From positions 1-45,656 of the forward strand of contig JAFLKR010000150.1 of the NCBI GenBank assembly GCA_019163135.1: a stretch of 45,656 bases of DNA, given 5' to 3'. The position numbers were made by a program, and so were the translations under genes. Shown piece by piece: positions 3,165 to 24,838 of this stretch; position 1 is the stretch's first letter, and each line of letters opens with the position of its first letter. Origin of the DNA: Desulfobulbaceae bacterium (GTDB taxonomy: Bacteria > Desulfobacterota > Desulfobulbia > Desulfobulbales > Desulfobulbaceae). A model generated the notes under the pieces. That model worked only from the letters and a program-made list of their open reading frames with translations. It ran no database searches and was not told the DNA's origin.

Positions 3165-3563
3165 TCAGCGGTATTGGCAGGCGGCACCGATCAGATCGTA
3201 ATTGTTACTGATACGGGTGGGGAGGCCGCGGTTGGCGTATAGTTTGATCGAGTTGTTTGTATTGACGGGTAAGGCCAGGGTTGCCCCCATCCGCGTATTG
3301 CTCTGCAGATCTTCCCTCTCTACGCCGTTTACGGTTGGGCGCCCGCCGTAATCATAGGTCCCGCTCACCGGTAGCCACACCCCTCGGCCAAAATTATAGG
3401 TGGCGTGCAATTGTGGAGTGCAGGTCGGCTCCTGCTCAAGCCTCCTTCCGTTGAAGTAGGAATCGTTATAGGTGAACTGAACAAGGCTAGCGATGATAGC
3501 CCTTATGTTTTTCCGTCCCTCCTGATTCAAAATACAAAAACAGCGCGATCTCGGTTTAGGCAC
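3165..3563 (-). pseudogene. C-terminal fragment of an outer-membrane barrel (phenol-degradation MetA-like family)
   Basis: About the last 110 codons (from near 3505 to the stop at 3165) read like the end of a 250-300-residue beta-barrel of the 'phenol MetA degradation' or SphA-like transporter family: QFTYNDSYFNGRRLEQEP, LHATYNFGRGVWLPVSGTY, GGRPTVNGVE, QSNTRMGATLALPV, then a C-terminal LIGAACQYR. The first two-thirds, including the signal peptide, are missing, because another gene begins immediately upstream. The first ~20 residues of the open frame have no barrel character, and the Met at 3563 is unlikely to be a real start. I read this as a deletion remnant. A functional short product is unlikely, since the final membrane strands alone could not form a barrel. 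Confidence 0.65.
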
Positions 3564-7543: not shown

Positions 7544-7786
7544 ATGGCTGTTGACAAAAGAGACGCAATCTGTAAACGTCCTCGACGGTTCCGCTCTGAG
7601 GCGAGACCCGAAGAAAAACCAAACCCTTACATGACGCTTGCCTTCCCTCGTCTCAACCGGTATTGGTCAGCGCGGCATAAGAGCTTTATACACCTGCGGA
7701 GGTTGTTGATGGCCGCTCGGGATTTAAGCGTTGTTCAGATTCACATGGAAGAGGACGCTGCAAAGACAAATGGCTGCCTTGGTTGA
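7544..7786 (+). CDS. Doubtful small ORF leading into the glycosyltransferase operon
   Basis: The ATG at 7544 has an excellent ribosome-binding site (GGAGGG, 6 nt upstream). The TGA at 7784-7786 is followed 1 nt later by an ATG (7788) in the frame of the next gene, a layout typical of translational coupling. The 80-residue product is Arg-rich, low in hydrophobic residues and resembles no protein I know. It is either a leader ORF that couples translation of the mannosyltransferase or a chance frame. Confidence 0.25.
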   Translation: MAVDKRDAICKRPRRFRSEARPEEKPNPYMTLAFPRLNRYWSARHKSFIHLRRLLMAARDLSVVQIHMEEDAAKTNGCLG

Positions 7787-8939: not shown

Positions 8940-9961
8940 TGATGAATCCGTCTTCTGAAGGTGCGGCTTTTATCCGGCCAACCATCCCCGACACCCGCGA
9001 CGTCGTTCCTGTCGTCAGCGTGGTCGTTCCTGCCTTCAACGAGGCCGAGAACATTCCTCTGCTCTATCGGCGTGTCGGCGAGGTCTTGCAGAAAATGGTC
9101 GGGAAACGCTGGGAATTGATCTTGGTTGACGACGGCAGCCGCGATGCCACCTGGTCGGTGATCTGTGGGTTGGCCGCAGACGACCCCAAGGTCCTGGGGG
9201 TGCGTTTGTCCCGGAATTTTGGCCATCAGTTTGCCCTGTTGGCCGGCCTGGAGATTGCGCAAGGGGAGGCGGTTATCACCATGGACTGCGATCTGCAGCA
9301 CCCGGTGGAAATGCTTCCCGTGCTTTTTGAGAACTGGTGCGCCGGTTTCAAGGTTGTCAAAACTCTGCGCCAGGATGTCTGCGACGTTGGCTGGTTCAAG
9401 GGCTGGACCTCGCGTAATTTCTATCGACTGTTCTCTTATCTCAGCGGGGTGCGTTTGCAGCCCGGAGTGGCTGATTTTCGGCTGATGGACCGCCAGGTCC
9501 TCCATGAATTGCTGCGTTTCGGTGAGCAGGGACTCTTCCTGCGGGGACTTACCGAGTGGATCGGCTTTTCATCCTGCTCGATCCCCTACAATGCCGATCC
9601 GCGGGCCTGCGGGCAGCCCCAATACAGCCTGAGGAAAATGATCAGCCTCGCCTGGAAAGGGGTGAGCTCTTTTTCGATTATGCCCCTGCGGGTCGGGATC
9701 GTTATCGGCGTGATGGGCAGCCTGCTCTCGCTGTTTGGGGTCTGTTACGCTTTTTTCGGGAAGATTATCGGTGCGGGGGTGGTGCCCGGCTGGGCCTCGA
9801 CCTTGATGGTGCTCTCGTTTTTATTTCTGCTGCTGTTTATTTATTTGGGTATTCTCGGGGAGTATGTCGGCCGCATTGTCATTGAGGTGCGGGGACGGCC
9901 CCGTTTCATTGTCCGCGAAACTGCAGGATTCGGCAGCCGTCGTCCTTTCCCCTATGAGTGA
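8939..9961 (+). CDS. GT2 polyprenyl-phosphate glycosyltransferase (DPM1/GtrB/ArnC-like)
   Basis: 340 residues. GT-A fold: VVVPAFNEAENI (28-39), the DD motif at Asp64-Asp65 (LVDDGS) and the metal-binding DxD at Asp116-x-Asp118 (MDCDLQHP). Two C-terminal membrane helices (about 255-280 and 290-316) are typical of the GtrB/DPM1 class, which loads a sugar from a nucleotide donor onto undecaprenyl or dolichyl phosphate at the cytoplasmic face. The ATG overlaps the upstream TGA (8937-8941), indicating translational coupling with the PIG-V-like transferase that probably uses its product. The last 8 nt overlap the next gene. Which sugar is used cannot be read from sequence. Confidence 0.9.
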   Translation: MMNPSSEGAAFIRPTIPDTRDVVPVVSVVVPAFNEAENIPLLYRRVGEVLQKMVGKRWELILVDDGSRDATWSVICGLAADDPKVLGVRLSRNFGHQFALLAGLEIAQGEAVITMDCDLQHPVEMLPVLFENWCAGFKVVKTLRQDVCDVGWFKGWTSRNFYRLFSYLSGVRLQPGVADFRLMDRQVLHELLRFGEQGLFLRGLTEWIGFSSCSIPYNADPRACGQPQYSLRKMISLAWKGVSSFSIMPLRVGIVIGVMGSLLSLFGVCYAFFGKIIGAGVVPGWASTLMVLSFLFLLLFIYLGILGEYVGRIVIEVRGRPRFIVRETAGFGSRRPFPYE

Positions 9962-10817
9962 TGCCATCCGGCTGGTGGTCAATGCCGACGATTTTGGGAT
10001 TTCGCCGCGCATCAACGAAGGTATCCTCCGGGCACATCGGGAGGGGATCGTCACCTCGACCTCTTTGATGGCGGTGGGGCGAGCTTTTGAGCATGCCGTC
10101 GATTGCTGCCGGATGGTCCCGACGCTGGATGTGGGGGTGCATCTGACTCTGGTTGCCGCGCGGCCCGTGCTACCGGATCGCTCCTCCCTGGTCGGTGCGG
10201 AGGGGAATTTTCCAAAGGGTGCGGGGGCGTTACTGCGCCGTTGGCTGGCGGGAAGCATCCGGCCCGCGGATGTGCAGGCGGAATGGGTGGCGCAGATCGA
10301 GCGCGTTCTGGATCAAGGGATTCCGGTGACGCATCTGGACAGCCACCAGCATGTGCACACCTTACCGGGGTTAGCCGATCTGAGTCGGCTGCTCGCCGCC
10401 CAGTATCATATCCCGTTCGTGCGCGTCCCGTTTGAAAATCTGCTGTTGGAGCGATGGTCGAGCCGGCATGGGATCAATCGGATGCTCGGGGCTCTGGTGC
10501 TCAGGGGTTGCGGGTGGCTGGCGGGCTTGACCGGTAACAAGGCAGGAACGGGTGCGTCGCCTCGGTTTTTGGGATTTCAGGATGGCGGCCGACTCGATGC
10601 CCATCGCCTGCGGTCGCTGCTTGATTCCCTTCGACCGGGCCGGACCTATGAGCTGATGTGTCATCCCGGATGCCGTCCGGAGGAACCGGAGATACAGCAC
10701 TGGGGCTACCGCCACGAAGTGGAATTGGAGGCATTGCAAAGCCCCGCCATCCGCGCCGAGATCGCCGCGCGGGGGATTGCGCTGTGTAGTTTTGCCGATC
10801 TGGCAAACAGTAATTGA
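9954..10817 (+). CDS. YdjC/ChbG/HpnK-family carbohydrate deacetylase
   Basis: 287 residues from the ATG at 9954, chosen because the family begins right before its NADDFG motif (residues 10-15) and because it gives an 8-nt overlap with the GT2 gene. The metal and catalytic residues of this TIM-barrel family are visible: Asp12-Asp13, His63 (GVHLTL), and the His-rich HLDSHQHVH (127-135), plus a late CHPG. Members deacetylate N-acetylated sugars such as chito-oligosaccharides; HpnK belongs to hopanoid gene sets. No hopanoid or squalene gene is nearby, so here it more likely trims an N-acetyl-sugar carried by the lipid intermediate made by the two upstream enzymes. That link is inferred from operon structure. 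Confidence 0.87.
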   Translation: MSDAIRLVVNADDFGISPRINEGILRAHREGIVTSTSLMAVGRAFEHAVDCCRMVPTLDVGVHLTLVAARPVLPDRSSLVGAEGNFPKGAGALLRRWLAGSIRPADVQAEWVAQIERVLDQGIPVTHLDSHQHVHTLPGLADLSRLLAAQYHIPFVRVPFENLLLERWSSRHGINRMLGALVLRGCGWLAGLTGNKAGTGASPRFLGFQDGGRLDAHRLRSLLDSLRPGRTYELMCHPGCRPEEPEIQHWGYRHEVELEALQSPAIRAEIAARGIALCSFADLANSN

Positions 10818-10926
10818 GCTGGCCCCGGATCGCGACCGCTCAATCTGCTTTTCAGCCGTAAACCCTATCTTTGCAATTTACCCTCGCGGTCCCAAAGTAC
10901 TCAACTCTTCACCGCTCGCAAGCGGG

Positions 10927-11685
10927 TCAATCGTCCTCTGCCGCCCTCCGCACCGATTCGCCCTCATTTTTAAACATCACCCAGTATTGTGCGCCCATGG
11001 GGATTTGGGCCAGTTTGCTCTCAAGGGCGGCCACCGCCGGCCATCGATGCAGTCCGGGCGGCAAGACGTTGAGGTAGGCATGGGTTATATAGCGGAAGGC
11101 CTGGGCTTGAAACAGTGAGATGGTCGTGGTCAACCGCAGCAGATGCGCGTCCTTGTCAAAGGGACAGGCCTTGACGATCAAGCGGGTCAGCGGGTTGAAC
11201 GGATTGTGCTCCCAGATTATCAAGGTGGCATTGGCCTTCATTCGGGCCCGCAAGGCCTGCACTGTTTCGGCCCTTTCGGCGGGGGGGATGTGATGAAAGA
11301 CGTTGCAGCTGATCACCAGATCAAAGCGGATATCTTGGGGAAGCGCCCCCCAATTATTCACCAGGCTAATCCGGTCATCGCCGGCGATGGCTTTAGCTTC
11401 CTTGAGGGAGTCCACCGAGGTGTCAAATCCGAACAGTCGCAATCCGTTGTGGGCCAGCAGCGGTTGTAACAGATCGGAGGCGACCAGGCATTTGAACAGC
11501 CGGCCGTTGCCGCAGCCGAAGTCCAGGTAGCAAAACTCCTGATCGGCATATTCATCCGTGATCCATTGCACGACCTTGGCGGCTTTCTGGGTGACAAAGG
11601 TGTCGCTGCGGACCCCGGGCGGCAGACTGCGGTTGTGGATTTGTTCGTAATCGGGAGCGACTCGGTCAAACAGATTTTTGGTCAT
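10927..11685 (-). CDS. Class I SAM-dependent methyltransferase
   Basis: 252 residues. Motif I is clear at 53-64 (YLDFGCGNGRLF), followed by an acidic end of strand two (LFGFDTS), motif IV (DLVISCNVFHHIPP) and a post-motif LIIWEHNPFNP. The first residues (NLFDRVAPDYEQIHNR) match the start of ubiquinone/UbiE-like and lipid- or polyketide-modifying enzymes. The EHNPFNP(L)TR stretch is common in methyltransferases near glycan or lipid-carrier clusters. It converges on the deacetylase gene with a 109-bp gap, so it is not in the same transcript, but it may act on the same glycolipid. Substrate unknown. ATG start at 11685. Confidence 0.85.
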   Translation of the reverse strand: MTKNLFDRVAPDYEQIHNRSLPPGVRSDTFVTQKAAKVVQWITDEYADQEFCYLDFGCGNGRLFKCLVASDLLQPLLAHNGLRLFGFDTSVDSLKEAKAIAGDDRISLVNNWGALPQDIRFDLVISCNVFHHIPPAERAETVQALRARMKANATLIIWEHNPFNPLTRLIVKACPFDKDAHLLRLTTTISLFQAQAFRYITHAYLNVLPPGLHRWPAVAALESKLAQIPMGAQYWVMFKNEGESVRRAAEDD

Positions 11686-11942: not shown

Positions 11943-14372
11943 TTATCTGCCCCTGCCTCCACCGCCGGCCCTACCGCCTCCTCCGGCCCGGCCACCGCCT
12001 CCGCCTGCGCGCTGTTGTGCCTGTGCCCGGCCACTGCCTTGGCTGAATTGGCCGCCGCCCCGTTCTCGCGGTTGGGCCTGGGAGGCAAAACTTTGTCGGC
12101 TCTGGCTGAGTTGGTTGCCGCGCGAGCGAGCCTGCGCTTGCGAATCCAGGTCGCGGGTGCTCGGGCTGAACTGGCTGCCGCGTGAGGAGGGCTGCATTTG
12201 GGCGCGGCTGGATTGGGCTAGGTCCGCGCGCGGCTGAACCTGTGCACGGTCGACGGCTTGCCTGGAGCTGGCCCGCTGCTGGGTTTGGGCTTGCGCAGCG
12301 CTCCTGGACGCTGTCCTATCTACCGGTGCCCAGCCATTTCCGGTATTGGAACTCCAGTTGCCGCTGCTGTCTTTTTTGTACACATTCCCGTCTTTACCGG
12401 CATAGACATTGCCGCCTTTACCTTTGACAACCGCCCCCTGACTGTTTTTGGTGTCCCAGGCAACCGCGCCTGACCCTCTATTGGTTTGTACGCCGGCAAC
12501 GGTTCCATAATCGTTGCTCCGGTATCCGCCGCGGACGGCGGTGCCAGTGTTCGGATTGTAGGTTGCCGCTCTCCCCGCCGAGCCATAGGTGGTATCGACG
12601 CGAGCGCCGGCGGCCCGGGTACCCGTATAAGGATTATAGGCTCGGCCTACAGCCGCGCTGCCCCGAGGTCCATAGACAGCCGCGCCGCGTGCATAGGTTC
12701 CGGTGGCCGGATTATACGCCATGGCGACTCCTCCGCCCCGGTATGGACCATACTGGGCATAGGGGGGGCGGTAATACCCGCCGTAGCCATAGTTATACCT
12801 GGCGCCATAGCCGTATGAATAGGGCGCGGGATAATGGTAATCGTGATAGTGGTCGTTAATCAGTGCGCCCACGATCATCCCGGCGCCAAACATCAGCACG
12901 CCGTTCGCCGCCACGTATTCGCCGCTATAGCCGGCGGTTTGCGAATAGACCACCGTGGTCGGCGTGCTGTTCTGCACGGTGACGTAGGTCACGTTGTAAG
13001 CGGGGTGGGAAGGCGGAATAGTGTAGATGGCCGCCGGCACGTTGGTGCAATAGGCCCAGGGGCCATCGGGGGAGTTGCTGGAATACCAGACCCCCTGGTC
13101 GCAGCAGTAGTAAGCGCCGTTGACGAGGAAGACCGCACTGCCGGTGTTGGTGGCATACTGGACGCTCGTTGACGGAATGGCCTGAAAGTTCGGGTGTCCG
13201 TTATAGGCCACCTGTACTTTCGGGGGCGTGTTGACATCCAGGGTTGTGGTATTGGGCACCGAGGCCAGCAGGACCGCATCCTTAGCCTCGGTGGTACCGG
13301 GCACGGAGGCCTTGACGAAGGCGGCGGGATCGCTATCCGGTATCTTGGAAAAATCCGAGGGCAGATTGTTGCTGGCACTTGTCCAGGGACCATCCAGGCT
13401 GGTGGCGCGGAACCAGCGCCCAGCGGTCAGGAAGTAATAGTTGCCATCGCCGGAGTTGAGGAACAGCGGGCTCTCGGTATTGGTCACCCGCATCAACTTG
13501 GTGCCGGAAATGGGATTGTAAGTAGGTTCGCCTTTGGTGAGGATCAATTCCGCCGGTTCCTTGCTGATCAAGACGATCGGCGGATTTTTATCCAGCTTGC
13601 CTGGCACCAGTGTACGGATAGCGTCCCAGTTGTCGCCCTCGGGCAGAGAAGACATGCCGGGCGGCAGGGTCGTGGTTGGCGCCCAAGGTCCATTGACCAA
13701 GTCCTTGGTGGTCAGCCAACTCTCCTGGTTAAGGAGATAATACCCCTGTCCGGCGGTATCGTAGAAGATGTCCCAGTTGGTGTTGGCCACAAACATCAGA
13801 TCCTTCTGCTTGGGATCAACAGGTTGCAGTTGCGGTTCTCCCTGCATCATCACCAGGATGGCGGGTTTACTGCTTGAGAAGATCTTTGGCGGATCCAAAT
13901 TCAAGTCAACCGTCGCTTGTTGCCGCTGCTGCGCCGGATCAATATAGGCGAGGATTCGATCCAGCGACACGGTTAGCGCCTGACCGAATGGCCGCAGTTC
14001 GTCCACCACACTTCGCAGGGCGGCAGCTTCCGCATCCGAGGTGTTCGGGAACCGCAGCTCACGTTTTTTGGGGATCACCGCCACCACGCGGGCGGCCTGA
14101 TCCACCACGGTCTCCGCATCCAACTCAGCCACGCCGAAGGTTTCCTTTTTGGATTTTCCGTCTTTGACGGCGATGGCAAACCGGACATGAATATTCTTGT
14201 AGTCCTGCCAACTATCCACCTGGGGCTGATAGATGGTAAGTTCCATGCTGTTTTTCTTGGTCACCCTTGGCCAGCCGGGATCATTGGGGGGTGTGTCGGC
14301 CGAAAAAGCACAGGTCGCCCCGAAAAACATGAGCAACAGTGCCAGTAGGATGGAAATTCTGGGAATTTTCAT
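11943..14372 (-). CDS. Large exported repeat protein with Gly-Tyr and Arg-Gly-rich C-terminus, 809 aa
   Basis: The ATG at 14372 was chosen over an upstream one because it has a strong ribosome site (GGAGG) and begins a clean signal peptide (1-24, cleavage after FSA). An N-terminal globular region (25-175) is followed by three tandem copies of a ~55-residue module at about 177-231, 280-331 and 391-440. Each has ATNT or VTNT, a YY(F/L/C) strand and a closing GPW. Next come a Tyr/Gly-rich section (515-545), short YNPxTGT repeats, then a Gln/Ser/Arg region and an RAGGGGRAGGGG-type tail. Databases label similar proteins 'carbohydrate-binding family V/XII'; I treat that label with caution. Probably surface or periplasmic. 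It seems to be the last gene of the minus-strand envelope cluster. Confidence 0.8.
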   Translation of the reverse strand: MKIPRISILLALLLMFFGATCAFSADTPPNDPGWPRVTKKNSMELTIYQPQVDSWQDYKNIHVRFAIAVKDGKSKKETFGVAELDAETVVDQAARVVAVIPKKRELRFPNTSDAEAAALRSVVDELRPFGQALTVSLDRILAYIDPAQQRQQATVDLNLDPPKIFSSSKPAILVMMQGEPQLQPVDPKQKDLMFVANTNWDIFYDTAGQGYYLLNQESWLTTKDLVNGPWAPTTTLPPGMSSLPEGDNWDAIRTLVPGKLDKNPPIVLISKEPAELILTKGEPTYNPISGTKLMRVTNTESPLFLNSGDGNYYFLTAGRWFRATSLDGPWTSASNNLPSDFSKIPDSDPAAFVKASVPGTTEAKDAVLLASVPNTTTLDVNTPPKVQVAYNGHPNFQAIPSTSVQYATNTGSAVFLVNGAYYCCDQGVWYSSNSPDGPWAYCTNVPAAIYTIPPSHPAYNVTYVTVQNSTPTTVVYSQTAGYSGEYVAANGVLMFGAGMIVGALINDHYHDYHYPAPYSYGYGARYNYGYGGYYRPPYAQYGPYRGGGVAMAYNPATGTYARGAAVYGPRGSAAVGRAYNPYTGTRAAGARVDTTYGSAGRAATYNPNTGTAVRGGYRSNDYGTVAGVQTNRGSGAVAWDTKNSQGAVVKGKGGNVYAGKDGNVYKKDSSGNWSSNTGNGWAPVDRTASRSAAQAQTQQRASSRQAVDRAQVQPRADLAQSSRAQMQPSSRGSQFSPSTRDLDSQAQARSRGNQLSQSRQSFASQAQPRERGGGQFSQGSGRAQAQQRAGGGGGRAGGGGRAGGGGRGR

Positions 14373-14674
14373 GTTACGCCTCCTTCCTGCCAAAAAAAAT
14401 GAATTCATGCCGCCGGAATGTAAAGTTATTCCGTTGTTAATTTGTGCCGATTGCGTGCAGTACGCATTATTTGATTTGCACAAATGCTACCTCAGCGACT
14501 TGATGCATGGTTGCCGAAAAGCCGACCCGGGCGAAAACCCAGTCCCATTCCCGGGTTTGATCAGACCTCCACTGCGGGGAGGGCTTACCGCAGGCAAAAG
14601 AACCTGTTAGAGGATACCAGTTCACTTTTGCCTGGGTTTGCGCGTGGTTGCAATGGGTATCGGAACAATTTGAA
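14373..14674. other. Intergenic region, no gene recognised
   Basis: This 302-bp spacer separates the 809-residue gene from the upstream lipoprotein gene. No credible gene is seen on either strand. The gap is long enough for a separate promoter for the 809-residue gene, but no close match to a -35/-10 pair was identified. Confidence 0.4.
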
Positions 14675-15241
14675 TTATTTCTTAGCCCGAACGGAGAGGG
14701 CCACGGCTTCGGTATAAGTGATGACGATAGTCTCGCCGACCTTGACTTTATCGAAGTTGGCGGGATCCTGTACTTTGACGACCGTCACCTCGCCATCGGG
14801 CATTTTGAGCGTTGCGGTCCCTTGCACCTTATCAAGCGCCAGGATGGTGGCGGTCACTGTGGTTTCGATCATCTCGGCCACCCCCGGTTTGTTGCCTGGT
14901 TTTGCCCTGGTCATCATTTCGGCGGTTTCATTCCTTACCTCCCCGGGTTTGGCCATCCGGACCGCCAGTGATTGGACATAATCCAGTTCTATTTTGTCAC
15001 CGACCCGGACCTGCGGCAGGTTGACCACCTCTTCACCGGCATGGATGGTCATCACATTGCCTTCGGACCCACGGATGGTGACCAGCCGTTTCTTCATGTC
15101 GATCTTTTCGACGGTTGCCGTTGCAGACACCACATTGGTTCTTTCAACGTTCAGTGCTTGTTTGGGGGCCGAATTGGTACAGGCCCAGACATTCAGGGAC
15201 AGCGTCAGTGTCAGTAGTACTCCAAGGTGTTTTTTCATCAT
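14675..15241 (-). CDS. Lipoprotein of unknown function with two similar halves, 188 aa
   Basis: Signal peptide with lipobox LNVWAC, lipidated Cys at 21, so membrane-anchored. The mature protein appears to be two related small beta domains. Residues about 41-95 read TATVEKIDMKKRLVTIRGSEG then LPQVRVGDKIELDYVQSLAVR. Residues about 127-185 read TATILALDKVQGTATLKMPDG then FDKVKVGETIVITYTEAVALS. Both halves have the pattern TAT-(V/I)-x2-(I/L)-D, a VT or TL strand, VGD/VGE and a closing Y-x-(Q/E)-(S/A)-(L/V)-A. I recall similar proteins in Geobacter-like bacteria without a function. It has an ACGGAGAAC ribosome site and lies 126 bp after the mechanosensitive-channel gene on the same strand. Confidence 0.72.
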   Translation of the reverse strand: MMKKHLGVLLTLTLSLNVWACTNSAPKQALNVERTNVVSATATVEKIDMKKRLVTIRGSEGNVMTIHAGEEVVNLPQVRVGDKIELDYVQSLAVRMAKPGEVRNETAEMMTRAKPGNKPGVAEMIETTVTATILALDKVQGTATLKMPDGEVTVVKVQDPANFDKVKVGETIVITYTEAVALSVRAKK

Positions 15242-15367
15242 GTTCTCCGTAAAGGGTTTTTAAGTGGTCATTCAGCCAGTTGTCGTAATGGTATTGATGA
15301 ATTTCTGTTTAATATTCGATAGGTTATTCTGTGGTGCTGTGGATGGCGGCCTCCAGCCCGCTGGTCT

Positions 15368-18300
15368 TCAGTCTTCCGCCCCTGAGTCAACTTTGTTCGG
15401 AATGGCACCCTTCTCCTGCACCAGCCTGATGTCGAGCGGCCGGTTGGTGTCGAGATGGACATCACGCTGGGGAAAGGCCATGGAGATTTCAGCCACCCGG
15501 AATTTTTGGTCGATGACCTGGTGGAGTGCGCTCTTGGCCGGAACCCGATCATCGACGTTGCCGATAAAACAGCGCAGCGTCAGCAGCAGGCTGTTATCCC
15601 CGAAGCTGTCAAAGGTGACGGCGGGTTTGGGATCCTCAAGCACCAGCGAATTTTCTTCCGCAGCCTGCTTCATTAGCGTCATGGCCAGTTGCACATCGCT
15701 GCCATAGGCAATGCCAACCGGCAGCAGGAGGCGGATAACAGGATCGGAGAGCGACCAGTTGAGCAGGCGACCGGAGATGAATTCCTTGTTGGGGACGAGC
15801 AGTTCTTTGCGGTCGAAATCGCGGATGGTGGTGGCTCGGATGCGGATACGGGTGACTACCCCGTCGGTCGTGCCGATGGTGACCACATCGCCCACTCGAA
15901 TGGGGCGCTCGAACAGGATAATGAGACCACTGATGAAGTTGGCGACGATTTCCTGCAAGCCAAAACCAATACCGACACCCAGCGCCGCAACCAGCCATTG
16001 AATCTGCGACCAGCTGAATCCGAGGATATTGGCAATCGTCATCAAGCCGGTGCCGCCGATCAGGTAGCGGGTCAAAGTGGTGGCGGTATAACGGCTGCCG
16101 GGGGTCATGTCCAGATGCTGGAGCAGGACAATCTTCAGCAGAGAGGGAAAATGACGGGTGGCCGTCAGCGTAATAATGCCGATCAGAATCACCAACCCGG
16201 CATCCGCCAGGGTGACGGGGACGATGGTGGCCTGGCCGTTGATTTGGGCGGTGTAACCCCAGAGGGTAAACTCGTTGAAAATGCGCAGTGCCGGCAACAC
16301 TTCGGCCCAGACTGCCCATAACCCGAAACATAAGGCGAGTGCCGTCGCGGTATCGAGCAGTTTGCGGCTCTCAGCGCTCAACTCAAACAGATCCTCCGTC
16401 GGCTCTACGATCGGGCCGGATTCTTTATCGAGGGCGAGTCGCTCCGGATGCCGGTCCACCTTAGCTTGGGCGCGGAGGCTTAACGTTTTTTGCAGAGCAA
16501 GTCGGCGACTGGATTGGATCAGCCACCGTTCGATCAGCTGGTGGCAGATGGCAAGCCCAACGGCCAACCATACACTGTTGATAAGGCAGCGGATCAAGGC
16601 TGCCACCGCAAAAACATATCCAGCCAGGACCAATCCGCTCATCACCACGGGCAGGGAGACGATGAGCAGGAAAAAAAGCGGATAGAGGCGGGCCAGGAAC
16701 TGGCTGGCATGTTCTGTTAAATAACGATGCCACACCCCGGTCTTGGGGTGGAGTACACGGTAGAGCGCGAAGGCAAGAATGATCAGGGTGGCGATAAACG
16801 TCAGCCTGCCCAGAATATGACTGCCGCCGGCACGAAAATTGGCCCAAAAAGCGATTTGGGTGAGAAGGATTGCAGGTAAAAAGGTGACGATAAATAATCC
16901 CGTTTCGCGGCGAAGCAGACTGAGCGTAGATTTTTGCCAATGGAAAAAGCCGCTTGCCAACCCTTTGGGCAATACCAGGAGGCGGAAGGCCCGCAGGAGG
17001 AAATAACGGTAGGCCAGCGCCATCAGGCCCATGGCGAGTACACTGGAAAACTCGGTTGTTTCGTCGTGAATGTGCAACTGCCACCCCAGGATCATGAGCA
17101 GCAGCGGACCTGGCAAGGCGAGCAGCAAGGTCGATCCCAACGCCTGCAGCGGCAGGGCGAAGTTGTAGCTGGCCGGATTGCCGGCCTGGCGGACAGCTGT
17201 TTCCAGGGCACCCTGCAGCGAGCGTTTGCCCCAGTGCAGAACGATGGTCAGCAGGCCGGCCAGCAGGAAAAATGGCGAAGTGACTACCTGGGTGCCGATC
17301 AGTTTTCCGGTGGCCAGCCAAGGGCCGGGAGCGAAGAGCACTGCAGCTTCATGCGGCAGGCTGGCGAAATCTTTGAGACGCATAAAAGGGGTGCCGCGCA
17401 GCCAGAGCAATCGTTCCGCCAGATAGTTGTCAAAGGCAACTACGGCTTTCAGGAGTTGGCGACCAGAAGCTTCGAGTTCGGCCAGCAGGCTGAGGTAGGA
17501 TTGATTGGAGGCGATGATTTTGTCGAGAAGGTTCCGCCGACTGGCGAGGAGGTTTTTGAGTTCCGGGCCGATCTTTGCCAACACTTCCTGAGGTGTGTCA
17601 GCTGCAAGTTTTGCCGTATACCCTTCCATATCGTCGAGTTGCTTGCGTTCTTCCCGGTACTGCACCTGGAGCAGGCCGGTTTCGGCAATGGCCATTTCAT
17701 TCTGGGCCGTCTTTTTTTGCAGGAGCCGTCCATCGGGAAGTGATCGCCGCTGTTCGAAGAGGAGCAGACCTATGGCTTGGCTCAGGCCAGCCAGTTCAAT
17801 CTTCTGTTTGGTGTTTCGGAAGCTCTCTTCGAGGTTTTTTACGTCCTTCTCAAGGGTGTCCTTTTCTGTGCTCATCTGCTCCAGGGCGGTGGTGACCTTT
17901 TGTAGTTCGTCACCTAAGGTGGCGTTTGCCGCCGCCGCCTGCTGCAGGATCGGATAACTGTCCGCAACCTGGCGCATGGCTTCCTGGGCTTGGCCCATAC
18001 TCAAGGTTGCTTCATCCTGCCGTTTGCGGTTGGCTTTTGCCTCCAGTCGCAGCACTTGGGACCGGGCCTCCTCCAATCGTTCGGCCGCAGCATCTCGCTG
18101 AGCGTTGGCCAGTTCCACCAGTACGGGCATGCTTATCAGTTCCTGGTTGAGCATGCGGGATTCACTGTGGAATGCCTGCATCTGGGTCTGCTGCAACCAA
18201 CGCCGTGCTTCGGTAATCTGCGGGTTTTCAGTTGCTGGCGAAGGGATCGTAAGGGTTGCAACCAATTCGTCCACGCTTTCCTTGATGACAGCGAGCCGCT

Positions 18301-18841
18301 GGCCGGATTTGACCGGTTTTTCGTTCAGAGATGCAAGTTGGCGGGTCAAGGCCGCCACATCCGCCTCCGCCGCGGCGTAGGCGGCCTTGGCAAGAAGGAG
18401 TTGCTGCTCGATATCCTTGAGCGGGACCTCATCGGCAAGGTCGTCTACTTTTGTTTGAAGATCGGGCTGATGCGCCAGCTTGTTCATTCCATCCCGAATC
18501 TTTTTAATATCCGCCGGCGCAGTCTCGATGACCTGGACGTATTTCTTGGACTGAGCCTCCTGGGATGCGGCGATATCCAGGTTTTCAAGGCTCATGCGGT
18601 AGAATTCAAGCAGTTGTTTTTTGGAGTTCTCCTCAAGTCCGCTGGTTTGCTCAATTTCCTTGGCTTTGGCTTTGAGCGTATCAGCGGAGACGAGCAGTTG
18701 GGCGTCCGAAAGCGGCTCGGTAGCCTCTGCGCCCAAACCCTGCTGCAAGGGGAGCAAAAGGAGAACCAGCAGCAGGGCAAGGTGCGTAAGGAAGCGTGCA
18801 GAAACCTTCAAGTTATTAATAACCTCACAGAATAGGACCAT
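15368..18841 (-). CDS. Large MscS-superfamily mechanosensitive channel (MscK/MscM-like)
   Basis: About 1,157 residues, close to E. coli MscK and MscM. Layout: signal peptide (hydrophobic stretch ending GLGA), a long periplasmic coiled-coil region (to about 500), a set of about ten membrane helices (roughly 520-930), then the MscS pore helix and beta domain with GFGLQEIVANFISG, LFERPIRVGDVV, TIRDFDRKELLVPN and a C-terminal alpha-beta domain. Such channels open under membrane tension and release solutes during hypo-osmotic shock. Start choice is uncertain: TTG 18868, ATG 18841 and TTG 18811 (with GAGG upstream) are all possible. It lies 48 bp or less after the lipase-like lipoprotein gene, pointing to one transcript. 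Confidence 0.9.
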   Translation of the reverse strand: MVLFCEVINNLKVSARFLTHLALLLVLLLLPLQQGLGAEATEPLSDAQLLVSADTLKAKAKEIEQTSGLEENSKKQLLEFYRMSLENLDIAASQEAQSKKYVQVIETAPADIKKIRDGMNKLAHQPDLQTKVDDLADEVPLKDIEQQLLLAKAAYAAAEADVAALTRQLASLNEKPVKSGQRLAVIKESVDELVATLTIPSPATENPQITEARRWLQQTQMQAFHSESRMLNQELISMPVLVELANAQRDAAAERLEEARSQVLRLEAKANRKRQDEATLSMGQAQEAMRQVADSYPILQQAAAANATLGDELQKVTTALEQMSTEKDTLEKDVKNLEESFRNTKQKIELAGLSQAIGLLLFEQRRSLPDGRLLQKKTAQNEMAIAETGLLQVQYREERKQLDDMEGYTAKLAADTPQEVLAKIGPELKNLLASRRNLLDKIIASNQSYLSLLAELEASGRQLLKAVVAFDNYLAERLLWLRGTPFMRLKDFASLPHEAAVLFAPGPWLATGKLIGTQVVTSPFFLLAGLLTIVLHWGKRSLQGALETAVRQAGNPASYNFALPLQALGSTLLLALPGPLLLMILGWQLHIHDETTEFSSVLAMGLMALAYRYFLLRAFRLLVLPKGLASGFFHWQKSTLSLLRRETGLFIVTFLPAILLTQIAFWANFRAGGSHILGRLTFIATLIILAFALYRVLHPKTGVWHRYLTEHASQFLARLYPLFFLLIVSLPVVMSGLVLAGYVFAVAALIRCLINSVWLAVGLAICHQLIERWLIQSSRRLALQKTLSLRAQAKVDRHPERLALDKESGPIVEPTEDLFELSAESRKLLDTATALALCFGLWAVWAEVLPALRIFNEFTLWGYTAQINGQATIVPVTLADAGLVILIGIITLTATRHFPSLLKIVLLQHLDMTPGSRYTATTLTRYLIGGTGLMTIANILGFSWSQIQWLVAALGVGIGFGLQEIVANFISGLIILFERPIRVGDVVTIGTTDGVVTRIRIRATTIRDFDRKELLVPNKEFISGRLLNWSLSDPVIRLLLPVGIAYGSDVQLAMTLMKQAAEENSLVLEDPKPAVTFDSFGDNSLLLTLRCFIGNVDDRVPAKSALHQVIDQKFRVAEISMAFPQRDVHLDTNRPLDIRLVQEKGAIPNKVDSGAED

Positions 18842-18889
18842 AAAGACCAAACTGAAAACTGGTGGCAATGGTCGGCTGGATCATACCCA

Positions 18890-20839
18890 TCAATGTTCCT
18901 TCCCCGGCAACGGTTGGTTTTCTTTGAGATGCGCCAGGAGGATGCGGCGGACCTCTTCGATCACCAGGGGCTGACCCTGACAGGAGTGGCCAGAGCGCAC
19001 CAGAAACTCCGACTCCACATAATCGACATGAGCGCTGGTGTATTTGACCACGCCGTCATCTCCGTCGGGCGGCATTTCATTGCCATCGATGGCGATGATG
19101 GAATGGCCCTTGATTCCAGGAGCGAGGGGGATGTCCGCCAAAGTCTTGATCGTCGGGTTGTCCGGCGACATTGCATCGAGGCTGGTAGTGGAGATGAACT
19201 GCTGTGCCTGGGCATCAGGGACGCCCAGGTTGGCAACGGTTTTCATGATATTGGCGGTCGATTGGAGTACCCCTTGGGGGAGGGTGATCACCTTGAGGAC
19301 CAGGGTGCGGATCCAGTTCTTGGATAAATAGCTGCCCCGGTGGGGAGTCGAAATGAAGATCACCCGTTTGACAAAGGGCAACGGTGAAAATACAGCCTCT
19401 TTTTCGATACGATGCCGATCTTCATCCGACACCTTGAGTTCGGCCAGCGATTTACCGGTCACCATCCGTACAAAGGCTTCCCCGGTGTCGGTGGCGGTCA
19501 GTTTGGTGAGCAGTCCCCCCTGGCTATGGCCAATAACCACCATTTGGCGCAATGCGGTATTGTTCCCCTCCGGATCCAGATTTTGCACTTGGGCGCTCAG
19601 GGTTTCTCTCAATTCATTGGCCGAAATACCGATTCGTTTGCCGCTGTCGTAGAAAAAATTCCAGATCTGGTATTTCCGGTTGATGACGGGATCGGCGCGG
19701 AGCGTGTTGACCATTTCAGCCCAGGCAACGGGACTGCTGAAGGTGCCGTGAACGAGAACGATGGGGATTTTGTCCGGTTCATACGGTTGCATGTAGAAGA
19801 CGCCGGTTTTGATATAGCTCGTCCCGTATAGAAATTCTTTAAAGCCAAGCCCTTGGATATAGGGCTGATCGATCGTATACGCAAGTTGCGCGGTTACGTC
19901 TCGCTCCAGAGGAACTCTTTGGTCGCCGACATCTATCTCGGTTTGGTTGTAGGCGGAGAACAGTTCCAGTTTACCGGAGCAAGTGCCTGCCTCAATTTCC
20001 TTCAACCGGCAGTTAAACCGCAGAAAAAGGGTTCCTGGACTAGTCCGGAACATAGGCGCCCCTTCCAGCTTTTTTTCAACGGCGATGATGGGCGCACCCA
20101 ATCCTGCCTGCCGGTTTCTTCGGCTTAAGCCTCTGATGCCGAATCGGTCCGTGGAAATAAATTTCTCGAACTCTGCCACCTTTTGATCGAATTTTTTGGT
20201 ATCAACGGAAAAGGCAAATCGGCCGACCGGCAGTTCCACCTCGGCGGGAACAATCTGGAGATTGCCGTCAGCATCGGCCAAGGCTTCAGCCAGGCTGCCG
20301 TTATACAGATCGCAGGCGATCCGGAATCGCCGGTCAAAGGGATTGGGAGGCTCCAGCCATTCTTTTCCTATTAAATAAAAATAGGCATAGATCGCCGAGG
20401 CGAAAAAATGGGGATGCGATTGTTTGATCCCCTTTTGCCGATACCGCATGCCGAGAAAATAATTAAGTTCCGACAGGGCAAAGAGCAGATCGTTGCGATA
20501 ATCTTTTTCGGCCTCGTGATGGAGGAAGGTGAGAACCTGTTGGGGATCCTCATTAAAGGCCTGGGTCAGATTGTAGCGAGTGAGGACATCTTGGGAGAAT
20601 CTGGAGTAGTCGTCGGCGCTGATGGCGCTGACTGCTATCTGTGCGTAGGTTTCGCGGGGGTCGTTTCGGTCTACCCCCACTGAAGTGGCGCAGCCGGTGA
20701 TGCCGAAGGCGGCTACGATGAGCAACAGCCGAAGACCTGCCTGAGAAAATTTGGCAAGAACCTGCTGTCCCGTTCCCCTTTTTATACGAATCGTCCTTAA
20801 AAGGGGTTGCAACTGCCGGGAAAGGAAGGGTCTTGCCAT
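18890..20839 (-). CDS. Alpha/beta-hydrolase lipoprotein (lipase/esterase-like), 649 aa
   Basis: A lipobox (GITGC, Cys50) after a hydrophobic stretch marks it as a lipoprotein. The N-terminal ~350 residues have no fold I recognise. The hydrolase core begins at VLVHGTFSS (361-369, oxyanion-hole region) and has the nucleophile elbow GHSQGG with Ser439. A late Asp (DGDDG) and a His in SGHSCQG are candidates to complete the triad. The substrate may be an acyl lipid or ester in the envelope. It sits between the mechanosensitive channel (about 50 bp) and the MipA-like gene (63 bp), on the same strand. The start has a GGAGACC ribosome site 9 nt upstream. The long N-terminal extension before the lipobox is unusual. 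Confidence 0.83.
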   Translation of the reverse strand: MARPFLSRQLQPLLRTIRIKRGTGQQVLAKFSQAGLRLLLIVAAFGITGCATSVGVDRNDPRETYAQIAVSAISADDYSRFSQDVLTRYNLTQAFNEDPQQVLTFLHHEAEKDYRNDLLFALSELNYFLGMRYRQKGIKQSHPHFFASAIYAYFYLIGKEWLEPPNPFDRRFRIACDLYNGSLAEALADADGNLQIVPAEVELPVGRFAFSVDTKKFDQKVAEFEKFISTDRFGIRGLSRRNRQAGLGAPIIAVEKKLEGAPMFRTSPGTLFLRFNCRLKEIEAGTCSGKLELFSAYNQTEIDVGDQRVPLERDVTAQLAYTIDQPYIQGLGFKEFLYGTSYIKTGVFYMQPYEPDKIPIVLVHGTFSSPVAWAEMVNTLRADPVINRKYQIWNFFYDSGKRIGISANELRETLSAQVQNLDPEGNNTALRQMVVIGHSQGGLLTKLTATDTGEAFVRMVTGKSLAELKVSDEDRHRIEKEAVFSPLPFVKRVIFISTPHRGSYLSKNWIRTLVLKVITLPQGVLQSTANIMKTVANLGVPDAQAQQFISTTSLDAMSPDNPTIKTLADIPLAPGIKGHSIIAIDGNEMPPDGDDGVVKYTSAHVDYVESEFLVRSGHSCQGQPLVIEEVRRILLAHLKENQPLPGKEH

Positions 20840-20902
20840 TGTTGCCGGTCTCCTGTCGAGCGTATGCCGATCGGGTCGATTTAATCCCGGATCGGGGAAG
20901 TT

Positions 20903-21631
20903 TTACCACATGATGTAGCCAATACCGATGCCGTCCATCCACTGGGTCGAATCGCCACGCTGCTCCACGATCGGGCTGTCGCCAGGATCACCAGCAATGG
21001 AAGAGCCGACGTTACCGGGATTAACCCCGAAGTAGCAATCGGCATACTTGTCATCTTGGTAGATCATACCGGCGCCGAGGTTAAGGTCAACGGGTTTGGC
21101 CACCGGTTGCCAATAACGAACACCCAGGTTAGCCCGGAAACCGTCGCTGACGTCCCCGACATCCTGATATACTTTGGCATCGAGGATGATGCGCTGGCGT
21201 TTCTCGTTGGCGTTGGCCCAGACAAGGTCTATAAAGGCGCCGGCTTCAATGGTCCCGTCGATCTCCTCCATCTTACTGACCATCGGATCGTCGACATTGT
21301 CATCACGGTCAAAGCGGTAGTTCAGTAGCGGGCCGAAACGAAACATCTGGTCGTCAAGGACATTAAGGGGCAACTCGTTGGCAATCAGTTGGACATAGCG
21401 TTCCTGATCCTTGAAGATATAACCGAAGAAAGGGGCGGCGCCCATGGTGTAGTCATCGGAGCCGCTGTAGTCGGGCATCATACCAACGCCCGTGCCGATA
21501 AAGGTGGGGACGTTCTCGAAGTCGAGATCAATGAAACCAGCAGCATTGGCCAACGAGAACGGTACGGTCGCAACCGAATCGGCAAGTGCGGCCGCAAGGA
21601 CCAGAAATTTGACGTTTGGTGCTTTTTGCAC
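20903..21631 (-). CDS. MipA/OmpV-family outer-membrane protein with an apparent internal deletion
   Basis: Starts at a GTG (21631), the only in-frame option. Signal peptide to about residue 30. The family hallmark GVGMMPDYSGSDDYT is at 48-62, and later strands match (RFGPLLNYRF, GAFIDLVW, YQDDKYADCYFGV). After YFGVNPGNVGSS (200-211) the sequence jumps directly to IAGDPGDSPIVEQRGDSTQW and the final strand. In E. coli MipA about 38 residues, two to three beta strands, separate those points. The barrel may therefore be incomplete. MipA proteins are outer-membrane or scaffold proteins linked to murein synthesis. It sits in the envelope cluster between a lipase-like lipoprotein and a DUF3313 lipoprotein. 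Confidence 0.8.
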   Translation of the reverse strand: MQKAPNVKFLVLAAALADSVATVPFSLANAAGFIDLDFENVPTFIGTGVGMMPDYSGSDDYTMGAAPFFGYIFKDQERYVQLIANELPLNVLDDQMFRFGPLLNYRFDRDDNVDDPMVSKMEEIDGTIEAGAFIDLVWANANEKRQRIILDAKVYQDVGDVSDGFRANLGVRYWQPVAKPVDLNLGAGMIYQDDKYADCYFGVNPGNVGSSIAGDPGDSPIVEQRGDSTQWMDGIGIGYIMW

Positions 21632-21705
21632 TGGACCGTTCTGTTGGCAATTGAAAAGGTGACGTTATTGGCAAGATATGCGCTTCATGCGGCCTTGGAT
21701 TTCGA

Positions 21706-22404
21706 TCAGGGGGTTTTTGCCGCGGGGCTCGGACTCGTGCCATGGGCCATGTCCAGGGTTACCCGCAGCCGTTTGGCCCAGAACTCAAAGGCCTCTTGGG
21801 TGGCGGCGAGTTTGCTGAAGCCGCTCATCTTCGAACCGTTGAAGGTATCAATGGCGGCGGCAAGACGCTGGCTGGTCATGGAGTCAAGAAATTCAACTTC
21901 CATGCTCGCACTACCTACACCTGTGTGGGAACCGGTTGTAGCTTTTTTGGCGACGCTGATGGCCAACCCTACCGGCAATACCGTAGTGATCCCGCTCGCG
22001 GCCGGGTTGCTCAATTCGATATCGGTGATCGCCACCCGGATGCGCAGGACATCATCGCCCGGTTCAGTGACCAGGGGATAGGCCGTGCCCAGGGCCTCGA
22101 AGACGGCTCGAGAAAAGGTATCGGACAGTTCCTTCAGTTCGCTGGCCTGCAGTCCTTGACTCTCTGCATCCTTCTTCAGGAAGAATTGCACCTCGTCGAG
22201 CATCACCCGGTGATATTTTTTCAAATCCATCCCCGGTTTGGTATAGACCTTATCCGCCCCGTCGGTCGGCCCCGGTTGGAACTGCGGATAGTCCTTGAGA
22301 AAACCGGAAGGGCTGCCCTTGGGGGCCGCGGCACAGCCGTAGAGGAGCAAACTTGCCAGCAAAATCACGAGGCCCTTTACCATGGATTGCGATTTATTCA
22401 TCAT
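21706..22404 (-). CDS. DUF3313-family lipoprotein
   Basis: 232 residues from the ATG at 22404, preferred over 22422 because an AGGAAGG ribosome site lies just upstream. Lipobox LLYGC (Cys24). The mature protein matches the DUF3313 pattern: SGFLKDYPQFQPGP, KYHRVMLDEVQFFL, LSDTFSRAVFEAL, a DVLRIRVAITDIE strand and a Gly-rich SHTGVGSASMEVEFLDS. The function of DUF3313 proteins is unknown; they are envelope lipoproteins, often near outer-membrane or stress genes. It is probably the first gene of a transcript continuing through MipA, the lipase-like lipoprotein and the channel. A hairpin at 22557-22591 separates it from the SYLF gene. Confidence 0.78.
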   Translation of the reverse strand: MMNKSQSMVKGLVILLASLLLYGCAAAPKGSPSGFLKDYPQFQPGPTDGADKVYTKPGMDLKKYHRVMLDEVQFFLKKDAESQGLQASELKELSDTFSRAVFEALGTAYPLVTEPGDDVLRIRVAITDIELSNPAASGITTVLPVGLAISVAKKATTGSHTGVGSASMEVEFLDSMTSQRLAAAIDTFNGSKMSGFSKLAATQEAFEFWAKRLRVTLDMAHGTSPSPAAKTP

Positions 22405-22556
22405 GCACCTTCCTGAAAGCAAATAGTATGGGGTGGTTGTTCTTGTTTGGCAACGCTGGGCAAACGGGATAGCCTGAGCGATCAGGGGCTGTCTTCCGAT
22501 CCATTGCCGTTTATGCGGTCAAACCATCCGAAAGGTCGATAAGGCTGCTACAAGGG

Positions 22557-22591
22557 GCCGTGACAAAGGCGACGAGCCCCTTTGCCACGGC
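22557..22591. terminator. 13-bp hairpin between the SYLF and DUF3313 genes
   Basis: GCCGTGACAAAGG (22557-22569) pairs with CCTTTGCCACGGC (22579-22591) with one G-U or A-C position and a 9-nt loop. It starts 17 bp after the SYLF stop codon in the direction of transcription. There is no U-run on either side, so termination may be partial. Confidence 0.5.
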
Positions 22592-22607
22592 TCTTGCTCT
22601 TGGGCGC

Positions 22608-23201
22608 TTATTTTTCCGGGGTAATCTTGGTAATTTTGCTGCCCTGGATGCCGATACCGGCCATCAAGCCTTCCTGCTTGAAGATAAAGGCGTAAATTCC
22701 GGATTTGGCTGTGGAGGTGGTGAGTGAGCGCGCCACCCCTTTATCAACGACAACAACGCTGGGTCCTACGCCAACTTCCCAGCCTTCGCTTTTATTGAGA
22801 TACTGCAAGCTGGCGTCATCGAGGAAGAACATGGCATACCCAAAGGATTGCGCCCCTGCCTGCAAACCATACGATGCGGCCACGGTATTGTAGTAACCGG
22901 TGGTCTTGCCGCCCACCCGGAGCGCCCCTTCACCATACTGACCGCCTACGATGAGTCCGGCTTTGACCACATCGGGAAAGACCAGGATTCCCCTGGCAAC
23001 CTTGGCCAATTTTTTGGCGGCTGGGGTGGTCCGGTACAGGGTCTGCAAGGCGCTGTTGACGTCACGGTCGATTTCAGCGGCAGTGGCGGCTGCCGATATC
23101 CGCGGGACGGACAGGACAAAGACCGCTACCAGCAAGGCCAGGCAGGTCAGCGCCAGTTGTTGGATTCTCCGGGTGGGATTGCTTTTCTGTGGTGTGTTCA
23201 T
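22608..23201 (-). CDS. SYLF/YSC84-domain lipid-binding exported protein
   Basis: 197 residues from the ATG at 23201, which has an AGGAGCAGC ribosome site and starts a signal peptide (1-38, cleaved near SAAA); the longer frame upstream lacks protein character. The SYLF (Ysc84 actin-binding or lipid-binding) domain fills the rest: AKKLAKVARGILVFPDVVKAG (62-82), GGQYGEGALRVGGKTTGYY, SYGLQAGAQSFGYAMFFLDD (110-129) and a final strand GLMAGIGIQGSKITKI. Eukaryotic SYLF domains bind phosphoinositides; bacterial ones are periplasmic and of unknown role. It is the first gene of the envelope cluster, likely with its own promoter in the gap upstream. Confidence 0.88.
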   Translation of the reverse strand: MNTPQKSNPTRRIQQLALTCLALLVAVFVLSVPRISAAATAAEIDRDVNSALQTLYRTTPAAKKLAKVARGILVFPDVVKAGLIVGGQYGEGALRVGGKTTGYYNTVAASYGLQAGAQSFGYAMFFLDDASLQYLNKSEGWEVGVGPSVVVVDKGVARSLTTSTAKSGIYAFIFKQEGLMAGIGIQGSKITKITPEK

Positions 23202-23898: not shown

Positions 23899-23974
23899 TA
23901 AAAAAAGGGTTACAGGTAAAAAACTGTAACCCCTTGCTATTATTTGTGGGCTAAGCGGCATCGAACCGTTAACC
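23899..23974 (-). repeat. Degenerate copy of the tRNA-Ala 3' end plus terminator (att-like direct repeat)
   Basis: Read on the minus strand, this matches the T-arm and acceptor 3' side of the tRNA-Ala at 24763-24838 and the terminator behind it. Shared exact blocks are ATCGAACCG, GCTAAGCGG and CTGTAACCCCTT in the same order and spacing, 820 bp apart. The 5' half of the tRNA is absent and the CCA end is mutated. A 9-bp stem (23907-23915 with 23924-23932) followed on the minus strand by a seven-T run still forms a terminator. A repeat of only the tRNA 3' end is what integrases leave at the far end of an island. Confidence 0.75.
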
Positions 23975-24010: not shown

Positions 24011-24394
24011 TCAGATTGAAAGGAAATCTCTGTAATAGGGGCAGTCTTTCTTGCTTGCACCTTCGTTGTAAAGACATACCGCCTGAGAAACGGATTTGGT
24101 TTCCAATTTATCCTCGAACCAATCTTTCACTGCTTCCCTGTCCATTCCCTTTTGGAAGCATTTATATTTTTTTCCGTAAGTTCCAAATCCGTACTCATTG
24201 AACAGGCCCTTTGATTCACATTTCGGGAAGTTGCGTTTTCCTTGTGAACTTTCAAGGATGTGGATTTTGGTGACAATGGTTTCAATGTCGGCTGTGTCGT
24301 TTGATGATTTCGTGTCCGTATAGCTTCCTGTCTTTGCCTGACTGCTTGATGCTATTGACAACGCAACCATCAATAATATTAGTATTGTTTTCAT
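24011..24394 (-). CDS. Small secreted Cys-rich protein, possibly lysozyme-like, 127 aa
   Basis: Signal peptide 1-20 (SSSQA). The mature part has an ILESSQGKRN segment with Glu48, four Cys (59, 79, 107, 118) suited to two disulfides, an NEYGFGTYG stretch and a C-terminal CLYNEGASKKDCPYY. The Glu-Ser-Ser-x-Gly start, a YGxG segment and a late YN(E)G resemble short lysozyme or transglycosylase-like domains, but this is only a resemblance. The gene is the sole occupant of the 820-bp segment bracketed by the tRNA-Ala 3' end and its copy. It is AT-rich compared with its neighbours, consistent with transfer. No ribosome-binding site is seen; a perfect 9-bp inverted repeat lies directly upstream. Confidence 0.6.
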   Translation of the reverse strand: MKTILILLMVALSIASSSQAKTGSYTDTKSSNDTADIETIVTKIHILESSQGKRNFPKCESKGLFNEYGFGTYGKKYKCFQKGMDREAVKDWFEDKLETKSVSQAVCLYNEGASKKDCPYYRDFLSI

Positions 24395-24718: not shown

Positions 24719-24754
24719 ATAAAAAGGGGTCACAGAAATAATCTGTAACCCCTT
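24719..24754 (-). terminator. Rho-independent terminator of tRNA-Ala
   Basis: On the minus strand a 12-bp stem (24753-24742 with 24736-24725, one G-U pair) and a 5-nt loop are followed by a T-run. It begins 9 nt after the encoded CCA end. The same structure recurs in the copy at 23899-23932. Confidence 0.85.
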
Positions 24755-24762
24755 AATATTGT

Positions 24763-24838
<76 letters not shown>

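Follow-up and report, generated by a model that had tools for sequence, protein, structure and literature searches.

A conserved, accessory block of seven envelope genes within a shuffled efflux and lipid-handling set of a Desulfobulbaceae genus

By analogy, the closest working parallel to the genes considered here is the MipA-MipB/ParRS/MexXY system of Pseudomonas aeruginosa, in which MipA and MipB are reported to be polymyxin sensors acting on MexXY, the proposal being that the MipA barrel detects a drug that acts on membranes and that the resistance-nodulation-division (RND) pump is raised in response (PMC10936184). SYLF has been described as a lipid-binding domain (PMC10787603), and a 2026 paper (PMC12994826) cites DUF4105 as Lnb, a lipoprotein N-acyltransferase of Bacteroides. 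The genes in question lie in a 45,656-nucleotide stretch of Desulfobulbaceae DNA (the whole of which we call the window; contig JAFLKR010000150.1, or C14, of the 3.64-Mb genome G000), where seven minus-strand open reading frames (ORFs) fill positions 11943-23201, all coding for exported or membrane proteins. As in the Pseudomonas system, a MipA barrel is tied to a lipoprotein and to RND efflux (the MipA of MipA-MipB was equated with PF06629 from its name). The cassette differs in that its neighbouring genes are those for SYLF, DUF3313 and lipase proteins and in that the regulator of its sister clusters is a sigma-54 activator.

Comparison with other genomes reveals that these seven genes are a real, conserved, accessory block, which belongs to a larger set of genes for efflux and lipid handling whose order is shuffled. 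The seven-gene combination was not found described in the literature searched, nor was a role for the DUF3313 and lipase families. The most interesting partner of this conserved cassette, a gene of the Lnb_N family, is outside the window.

Composition and gene order of the cassette

Families were assigned by Pfam and NCBIfam profile scans of the minus-strand ORFs at 11943-23201, where the plus-strand ORFs are mostly much shorter. From its first gene onward, the cassette reads as follows.

22608-23201, minus strand: SYLF-domain exported protein, first gene, 197 aa (NF049970; structure-database match 7ofn)
21706-22422, minus strand: DUF3313 lipoprotein (PF11769)
20903-21631, minus strand: MipA-family outer-membrane barrel (PF06629)
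18890-20839, minus strand: lipase lipoprotein, 649 aa (predicted model with a lipase-fold domain; invariant residues)
15368-18868, minus strand: MscK/MscM-like mechanosensitive channel, 1166 aa (Pfam domains; 7uw5 match)
14675-15241, minus strand: lipoprotein with two similar small domains, the two-domain reading made by eye, 188 aa (sub-threshold matches)
11943-14372, minus strand: exported repeat protein, 809 aa (ORF; without a Pfam family)

A reading of the window from its sequence alone had proposed a one-direction, seven-gene envelope cluster with gaps mostly under 130 bp, and the ORFs and profile scans bear out both points: in the order listed, the intergenic gaps are 185, 74, 63, 21, 126 and 302 bp, so that four of the six do not exceed 126 bp. 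Leaders and lipoboxes were judged by eye; on this basis three of the proteins (DUF3313, lipase and 188-aa) are assigned lipobox cysteines and the other four (SYLF, MipA, MscK-like and 809-aa) Sec-type leaders. The SYLF ORF opens with an ATG at 23201 preceded by AAAGGAG, and the 809-aa ORF with an ATG at 14372 behind a good ribosome site. No terminator-like sites are listed in the minus-strand gaps of the cluster, and promoter-like sites are found at chance level (9, with 9.1 expected). A single operon is a candidate only, the two widest gaps (185 and 302 bp) being large enough to hold promoters. No sigma-54 promoter was found before the SYLF gene, the best score there being 7 of 12 positions, a common one in the window, where a score of 10 of 12 occurs twice.

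The gene-neighbourhood check that the sequence-only reading had called for did uncover co-occurrence, with pieces of the set around 80 lipase loci (described below) and the same order in two members of the genus. Specifically, contig C55 of G010 carries all seven as SYLF-DUF3313-Lnb_N-MipA-lipase-MscK-188-aa-809-aa, that is, the window order plus Lnb_N, with the SYLF and 809-aa genes cut by the contig ends. In G019, SYLF-DUF3313-MipA-lipase run to the end of C350 and MscK-188-aa-809-aa lie on C57, a split that fits a single block broken by assembly.

Elsewhere in the genus the genes keep other company (efflux-locus genes were named by Pfam matches, PPK2 and SulP by eye). The lipase of G003 adjoins Lnb_N on one contig (C303), and another (C257) has RND-OMF-188-aa-SYLF-DUF3313-MipA-AI2E. 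G014 and G022 share the order regulator-ABM-MFP-RND-OMF-188-aa-SYLF-DUF3313-MipA-PqiA-PqiB-PqiC-AI2E-PPK2, with a relative of the 809-aa gene 12-14 kb past DUF3313; G014 also carries MFP-RND-OMF-188-aa-DUF3313-809-aa at a second locus, and the order in G011 is MFP-RND-OMF-DUF3313-PqiABC. MFP-RND-OMF precedes shared cassette genes in G003, G014 and G022, and PqiABC follows DUF3313 or MipA in three genus members (G011, G014 and G022); in G238, PqiABC lies ~5 kb from the lipase. In G010, parts of the 809-aa gene end both C55 and C23, and C23 goes on as MFP-RND-OMF-AI2E-PPK2-SulP; if the two contigs join there, as we infer, the cassette is apparently followed by an efflux operon.

It follows from the loci in G003, G010, G011, G014 and G022 that the window shows one of several arrangements in which a larger set of genes is shuffled. 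With RND efflux, PqiABC lipid transport and a sigma-54-type regulator, the genus context is one of envelope defence, in agreement with the envelope-damage theme of the sequence-only reading. The view of that reading that the seven genes form a system holds only in part: the order recurs in the genus, but it was seen only within the genus and does not define a stand-alone system. A dedicated seven-gene system was ruled out, given that genus members distribute the genes over these other arrangements; the commonest partner of the lipase, Lnb_N, lies outside the window.

The lipase and its Lnb_N partner

No Pfam family matches the lipase above cut-off. Four of its residues, C50 of the lipobox, S439, D595 and H618, are invariant in 53/53 aligned sequences (53 of 80 full-length at hand), and the last three, named by position, are the likely catalytic triad. 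In the predicted model (pLDDT 84.3), residues 343-640 match bacterial lipases with Z up to 20.4, residues 50-340 being barely covered by the fold comparison. The Ser-Asp-His set and the fold are those of a serine lipase (alpha/beta hydrolase), and hydrolysis of lipid esters is predicted. The lipase is present in 11 of 95 genomes, its own included (E<=0.001): within the genus in G003, G010 and G019 (77-80% identical), and also in G017 (41% identical, ended by a contig edge and with one internal stop), with matches over most of the length in G059 (43%) and G031 (32%); six further matches, spread over four genomes (G023, G050, G051 and G064), cover the hydrolase core only, at 27-33%. A contig search with the lipase alone returned nothing, and an alignment query returned 244 relatives, the best 80 of which are the 80 lipase loci, with group labels assigned by hand from record titles. 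On the lipase tree, in which untitled records were counted as Desulfobacterota, the labels of three groups change 6 times, against a minimum of 2 and a mean of ~28 in shuffles, which implies some transfer between groups but, for the most part, none.

The most frequent neighbour of the lipase is Lnb_N (PF13387, which we take to be the former DUF4105), present in 46 of the 80 loci. All 47 copies share the strand of the lipase, 39 directly upstream, 3 directly downstream and 5 further away, and the loci that carry it comprise 32/41 of Desulfobacterota type, 10/24 of Verrucomicrobiota type, 0/8 of Methylococcales type and 4/7 unplaced. Across 36 genomes, the window's own included, Lnb_N occurs in five (G000, G003, G010, G017 and G059), all of which have the lipase; in the fragmented genome G019 the lipase is present and Lnb_N was not found. 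Across 198 genomes of the phylum, 5 carry the lipase (E<=1e-40) and 21 carry Lnb_N, among them all five lipase genomes (hypergeometric P=8e-6, or 8e-5 without the window genome), and the two lie less than 1 kb apart in four of these five. Furthermore, the sequence distances of Lnb_N and lipase correlate (r=0.71, 0/2000 permutations; 44 loci, no control pair), a correlation that vertical descent alone would also yield.

Like the Lnb of Bacteroides, this lipase partner carries a PF13387 domain with invariant His and Cys: H148 and C250 are kept in 23/23 aligned sequences (roughly half of the available ones), which agrees with the His/Cys pair known from permuted NlpC/P60 enzymes. Unlike that Lnb, it partners a lipase lipoprotein and is usually short (~335 aa). 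Its frames in the five lipase genomes measure 337, 348, 349 and 460 aa, with 996 aa in G183; frames of at least 634 aa occur in 15 of the 16 Lnb_N genomes that are without the lipase. Lnb_N is a probable acyl-transferring enzyme, for which N-acylation of diacyl lipoproteins is predicted. In the window genome it is encoded on contig C135 (L146, 2424-7793), in the order sigma-54 activator, ABM, 102-aa frame, Lnb_N, full-length MipA, second 188-aa-type lipoprotein, contig end. The sigma-54-type activator has a PAS-3 match, with GAF slightly under cut-off, and a 10/12 sigma-54 site before the ABM gene lies over coding sequence. This is a second, related cluster in the same genome.

It is informative to examine the wider lipase neighbourhood, counted here as single-linkage BLAST clusters of mechanical ORFs. 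Genes of the cassette recur around the 80 loci (DUF3313 in 19, the 188-aa type in 17, SYLF in 11, MipA in 5), together with sulfatase (17), MetA-type barrels (11 and 9), radical SAM/SPASM proteins (10), a 365-aa lipoprotein type (10), a FadL/Toluene_X type (9) and DUF1254/1214 (9). At loci such as L019, L029, L032 and L105, the genes for sulfatase, radical SAM, DUF1254/1214, MetA barrel, FadL and 365-aa lipoprotein proteins lie mostly on the lipase strand. One of these loci, L029, belongs to a cultured relative, Desulfoprunum benzoelyticum DSM 28570, and carries SYLF-DUF3313-Lnb_N-lipase. If genomes are assumed to average 3.3 Mb, ~0.04 copies each of Lnb_N and DUF3313 would be expected in the 80 loci, against the 46 and 19 loci in which they occur. 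At the scale of the phylum, the association of DUF3313 with the lipase is weak (3/5 genomes, P=0.01; 2/4, P=0.06, without the window genome). In the window itself, a minus-strand ORF at 3165-3563 was grouped by single linkage with a MetA-type barrel cluster.

The other cassette proteins and the tRNA-Ala hotspot

The SYLF protein shares its domain with the BPSL1445 SYLF lipoprotein, matching 7ofn (BPSL1445) at E=2.5e-37 and, more weakly, BefA (7rfq, E=8.5e-4). It differs in scoring under the cut-off of the corresponding family NF049970 (181.1 bits against 200, E=1.6e-53, with a longer, 251-aa ORF scanned) and in having a leader without a visible lipobox. The DUF3313 protein passes the PF11769 gathering cut-off (165.7 against 26.1 bits, E=1.3e-48), and its predicted model (mean pLDDT 70.7) resembles PelC (Z 11.2), PqiC (Z 9.5), TraT and LptE, matches that would suit several related outer-membrane lipoprotein folds, none singled out. 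The PqiC/LptE/PelC fold of this model, like the gene order in G011, G014 and G022, recalls PqiABC, although the window cassette has no PqiA, PqiB or PqiC gene. MipA passes the PF06629 gathering cut-off (106 against 24.2 bits, E=4.1e-30). The 188-aa lipoprotein has only DUF3857 and CusF matches, both sub-threshold, and the 809-aa protein matches no Pfam family.

The channel has the full domain set of the large MscK/MscM channels (MscS_porin, MscS_TM and MscS in Pfam) and matches MscK 7uw5 at E=4e-104; it differs from them in falling under the cut-off of the MscK equivalog NF008438 (613 against 991) and in its place within an envelope cassette, and is filed only as MscK/MscM-like. A second MscK-like gene, 55% identical, is on C24 of the same genome. 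MscS-type channels occur in 8 of the 80 lipase loci, one of the eight on the opposite strand; seven are outside the genus, and these have no MscS_TM or MscS_porin match. From 178 matches in 319 Mb of Desulfobacterota, ~0.6 would be expected in the 1.08 Mb of lipase flank (P=3e-7 for eight and 3e-6 for seven; 6e-4 and 3e-3 at a threefold base rate), figures to be read with a base rate taken from the Pfam family on Desulfobacterota genomes only, some loci belonging to other phyla, and a hidden Markov model trained on channels already found, namely that of the window and one from G183, a genome of the phylum in which the channel lies ~3 kb from the lipase on the opposite strand.

Upstream of the SYLF gene lies a tRNA-Ala that is an integration hotspot of the genus, with the following features.

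24763-24838, minus strand: tRNA-Ala(GGC) beside mreBCD, genus integration hotspot
24721-24794, no strand: tRNA 3' end and terminator, degenerate repeat copy 1
23902-23974, no strand: degenerate repeat copy 2, 75% and 88% alike in two parts
24011-24394, minus strand: exported protein, 127 aa, between the repeat copies

The 127-aa protein has no Pfam match up to E 0.1 and a single sub-threshold NCBIfam match. The tRNA end and its terminator recur in degraded form ~820 bp off, just outside the cassette, and this second copy is a possible old attachment site between cassette and tRNA. tRNA-Ala(GGC) adjoins mreB in 7/7 genus members fetched, and the window cassette genes were not matched in those seven mreB/tRNA-Ala stretches. 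Beyond the tRNA, in the five genomes listed, G001 and G014 have the same first gene, and G007, G009 and G010 differ; integrase-like and phage-like genes, recognized by eye, lie beside the tRNA-Ala of G010 (L153, 5395-18631). G014 has two tRNA-Ala(GGC) copies (L150, 15753-15828 and 17276-17351), and its second RND-OMF-188-aa-DUF3313-809-aa locus (L128) is 18-20 kb from both; a related cluster therefore lies near the same hotspot. The G+C content, in 2-kb windows, is 53-61% in the cassette and 46-55% in most flanks, the genes immediately to the left being G+C-rich as well. On that side, PIG-V-like mannosyltransferase, GT2, YdjC-like and methyltransferase genes adjoin the cassette at 7731-11685, and the DnaA gene is at 5302-6621 on the minus strand.

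Possible functions of the cassette

The reading we prefer, to which we give about an even chance, is that of an accessory, recombining envelope-stress cassette of Desulfobulbus-type bacteria in which the lipase and the Lnb_N acyltransferase remodel the acyl chains of membrane lipids or lipoproteins. As the lipase elsewhere often adjoins a probable acyl-transferring enzyme, the cassette probably remodels damaged envelope lipids. Starting from the observed composition, synteny, invariant residues, Lnb_N-lipase link and neighbourhood, we propose that a toxic or membrane-active compound would be sensed at the envelope by the MipA-type barrel, a sigma-54 activator heading the sister clusters, and would be cleared by efflux and lipid-transport parts where these are present. 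The outer-membrane lipase would then deacylate the lipid or lipoprotein that has been damaged, and Lnb_N, encoded in the same genome on another contig, would transfer an acyl chain to an acceptor; lipid would be bound or passed on by the DUF3313 and SYLF proteins, and a change in tension or turgor relieved by the channel. In this scheme we infer the membrane placement, the substrates and the direction of transfer, and likewise any part played by SYLF, DUF3313, the channel and the 188-aa and 809-aa proteins. A more tentative idea, which we think doubtful, is a module for acyl exchange that spans the periplasm and for which the literature searched has no name. In genomes of Desulfobacterota and Verrucomicrobiota type, a short, inner-membrane-anchored Lnb_N and an outer-membrane lipase lipoprotein, often with DUF3313/SYLF binders and sometimes with an MscS-type channel, would take acyl chains off damaged lipids or lipoproteins and put others in their place.

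Several observations weigh against the remodelling cassette. The window has no Lnb_N gene, and 34 of the 80 lipase loci are without one (5 of them with <1.5 kb upstream), including 8/8 of Methylococcales type and 14/24 of Verrucomicrobiota type. Because the lipase loci are related, the Poisson and permutation figures overstate independence. The window MipA (20903-21631) is without a 38-residue stretch present in 6/6 aligned relatives and may be defective, the gap being either a real loss or an assembly fault. The sigma-54 site before SYLF is not convincing (7/12 positions at best), and within the window genome the G010 RND pump has no closer relative than one of 40% identity. Finally, the sulfatase, radical SAM, DUF1254 and porin neighbours outside the genus fit uptake or degradation equally well.

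These last neighbours are the basis of an alternative in which the lipase and its wider surroundings form a pathway of the outer membrane and periplasm that takes up and degrades lipids, sulfate esters or aromatic compounds from outside. It draws on the sulfatase, radical SAM/SPASM, DUF1254/1214, FadL/Toluene_X and MetA-type barrel counts given above, and keeps some probability because of the sulfatase-rich loci outside the genus. We nonetheless consider it unlikely: neither the cassette nor the stretches of G010 (L028, L158) were found to contain any of those genes, the genus context is one of efflux, with PqiABC in three members, and Lnb_N and MscS-type channels are ill-suited to a simple degradation role. 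Less probable still is a chance pile-up of envelope genes in the tRNA-Ala hotspot, with no joint function. The cassette does abut the tRNA-Ala beyond which genus contents vary, and gene order is shuffled between genomes, but the order is identical in G010 and G019, and Lnb_N, DUF3313 and MscS-type genes stand in 46, 19 and 8 of 80 loci where ~0.04, 0.04 and 0.6 are expected. Least probable of all is the model of the sequence-only reading, a unit dedicated to sensing tension, where the lipase and the lipid-binding proteins would be set off by the MscK-like channel. Although the channel and lipase genes are 21 bp apart and MscS-type channels occur in 8/80 lipase loci, 72/80 (many short) have none, the seven channels outside the genus lack both MscS_TM and MscS_porin matches, no cassette genes were found within the 18 kb fetched around the MscK gene in G001, G014, G022 and C24 of the window genome (the second such gene there), and no MscK gene was seen in the other genus arrangements fetched (L126-L132). 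A place of the channel as hub is not supported.

Whatever its substrates, the Lnb_N-lipase pair gives the DUF3313 and lipase families an enzymatic context, and it suggests that Lnb-type acyl transfer acts outside Bacteroidota, alongside a lipase. More broadly, the recurrent, shuffled set of which the seven window genes are one arrangement connects lipid remodelling with RND efflux and PqiABC lipid transport in anaerobes that have received little study.

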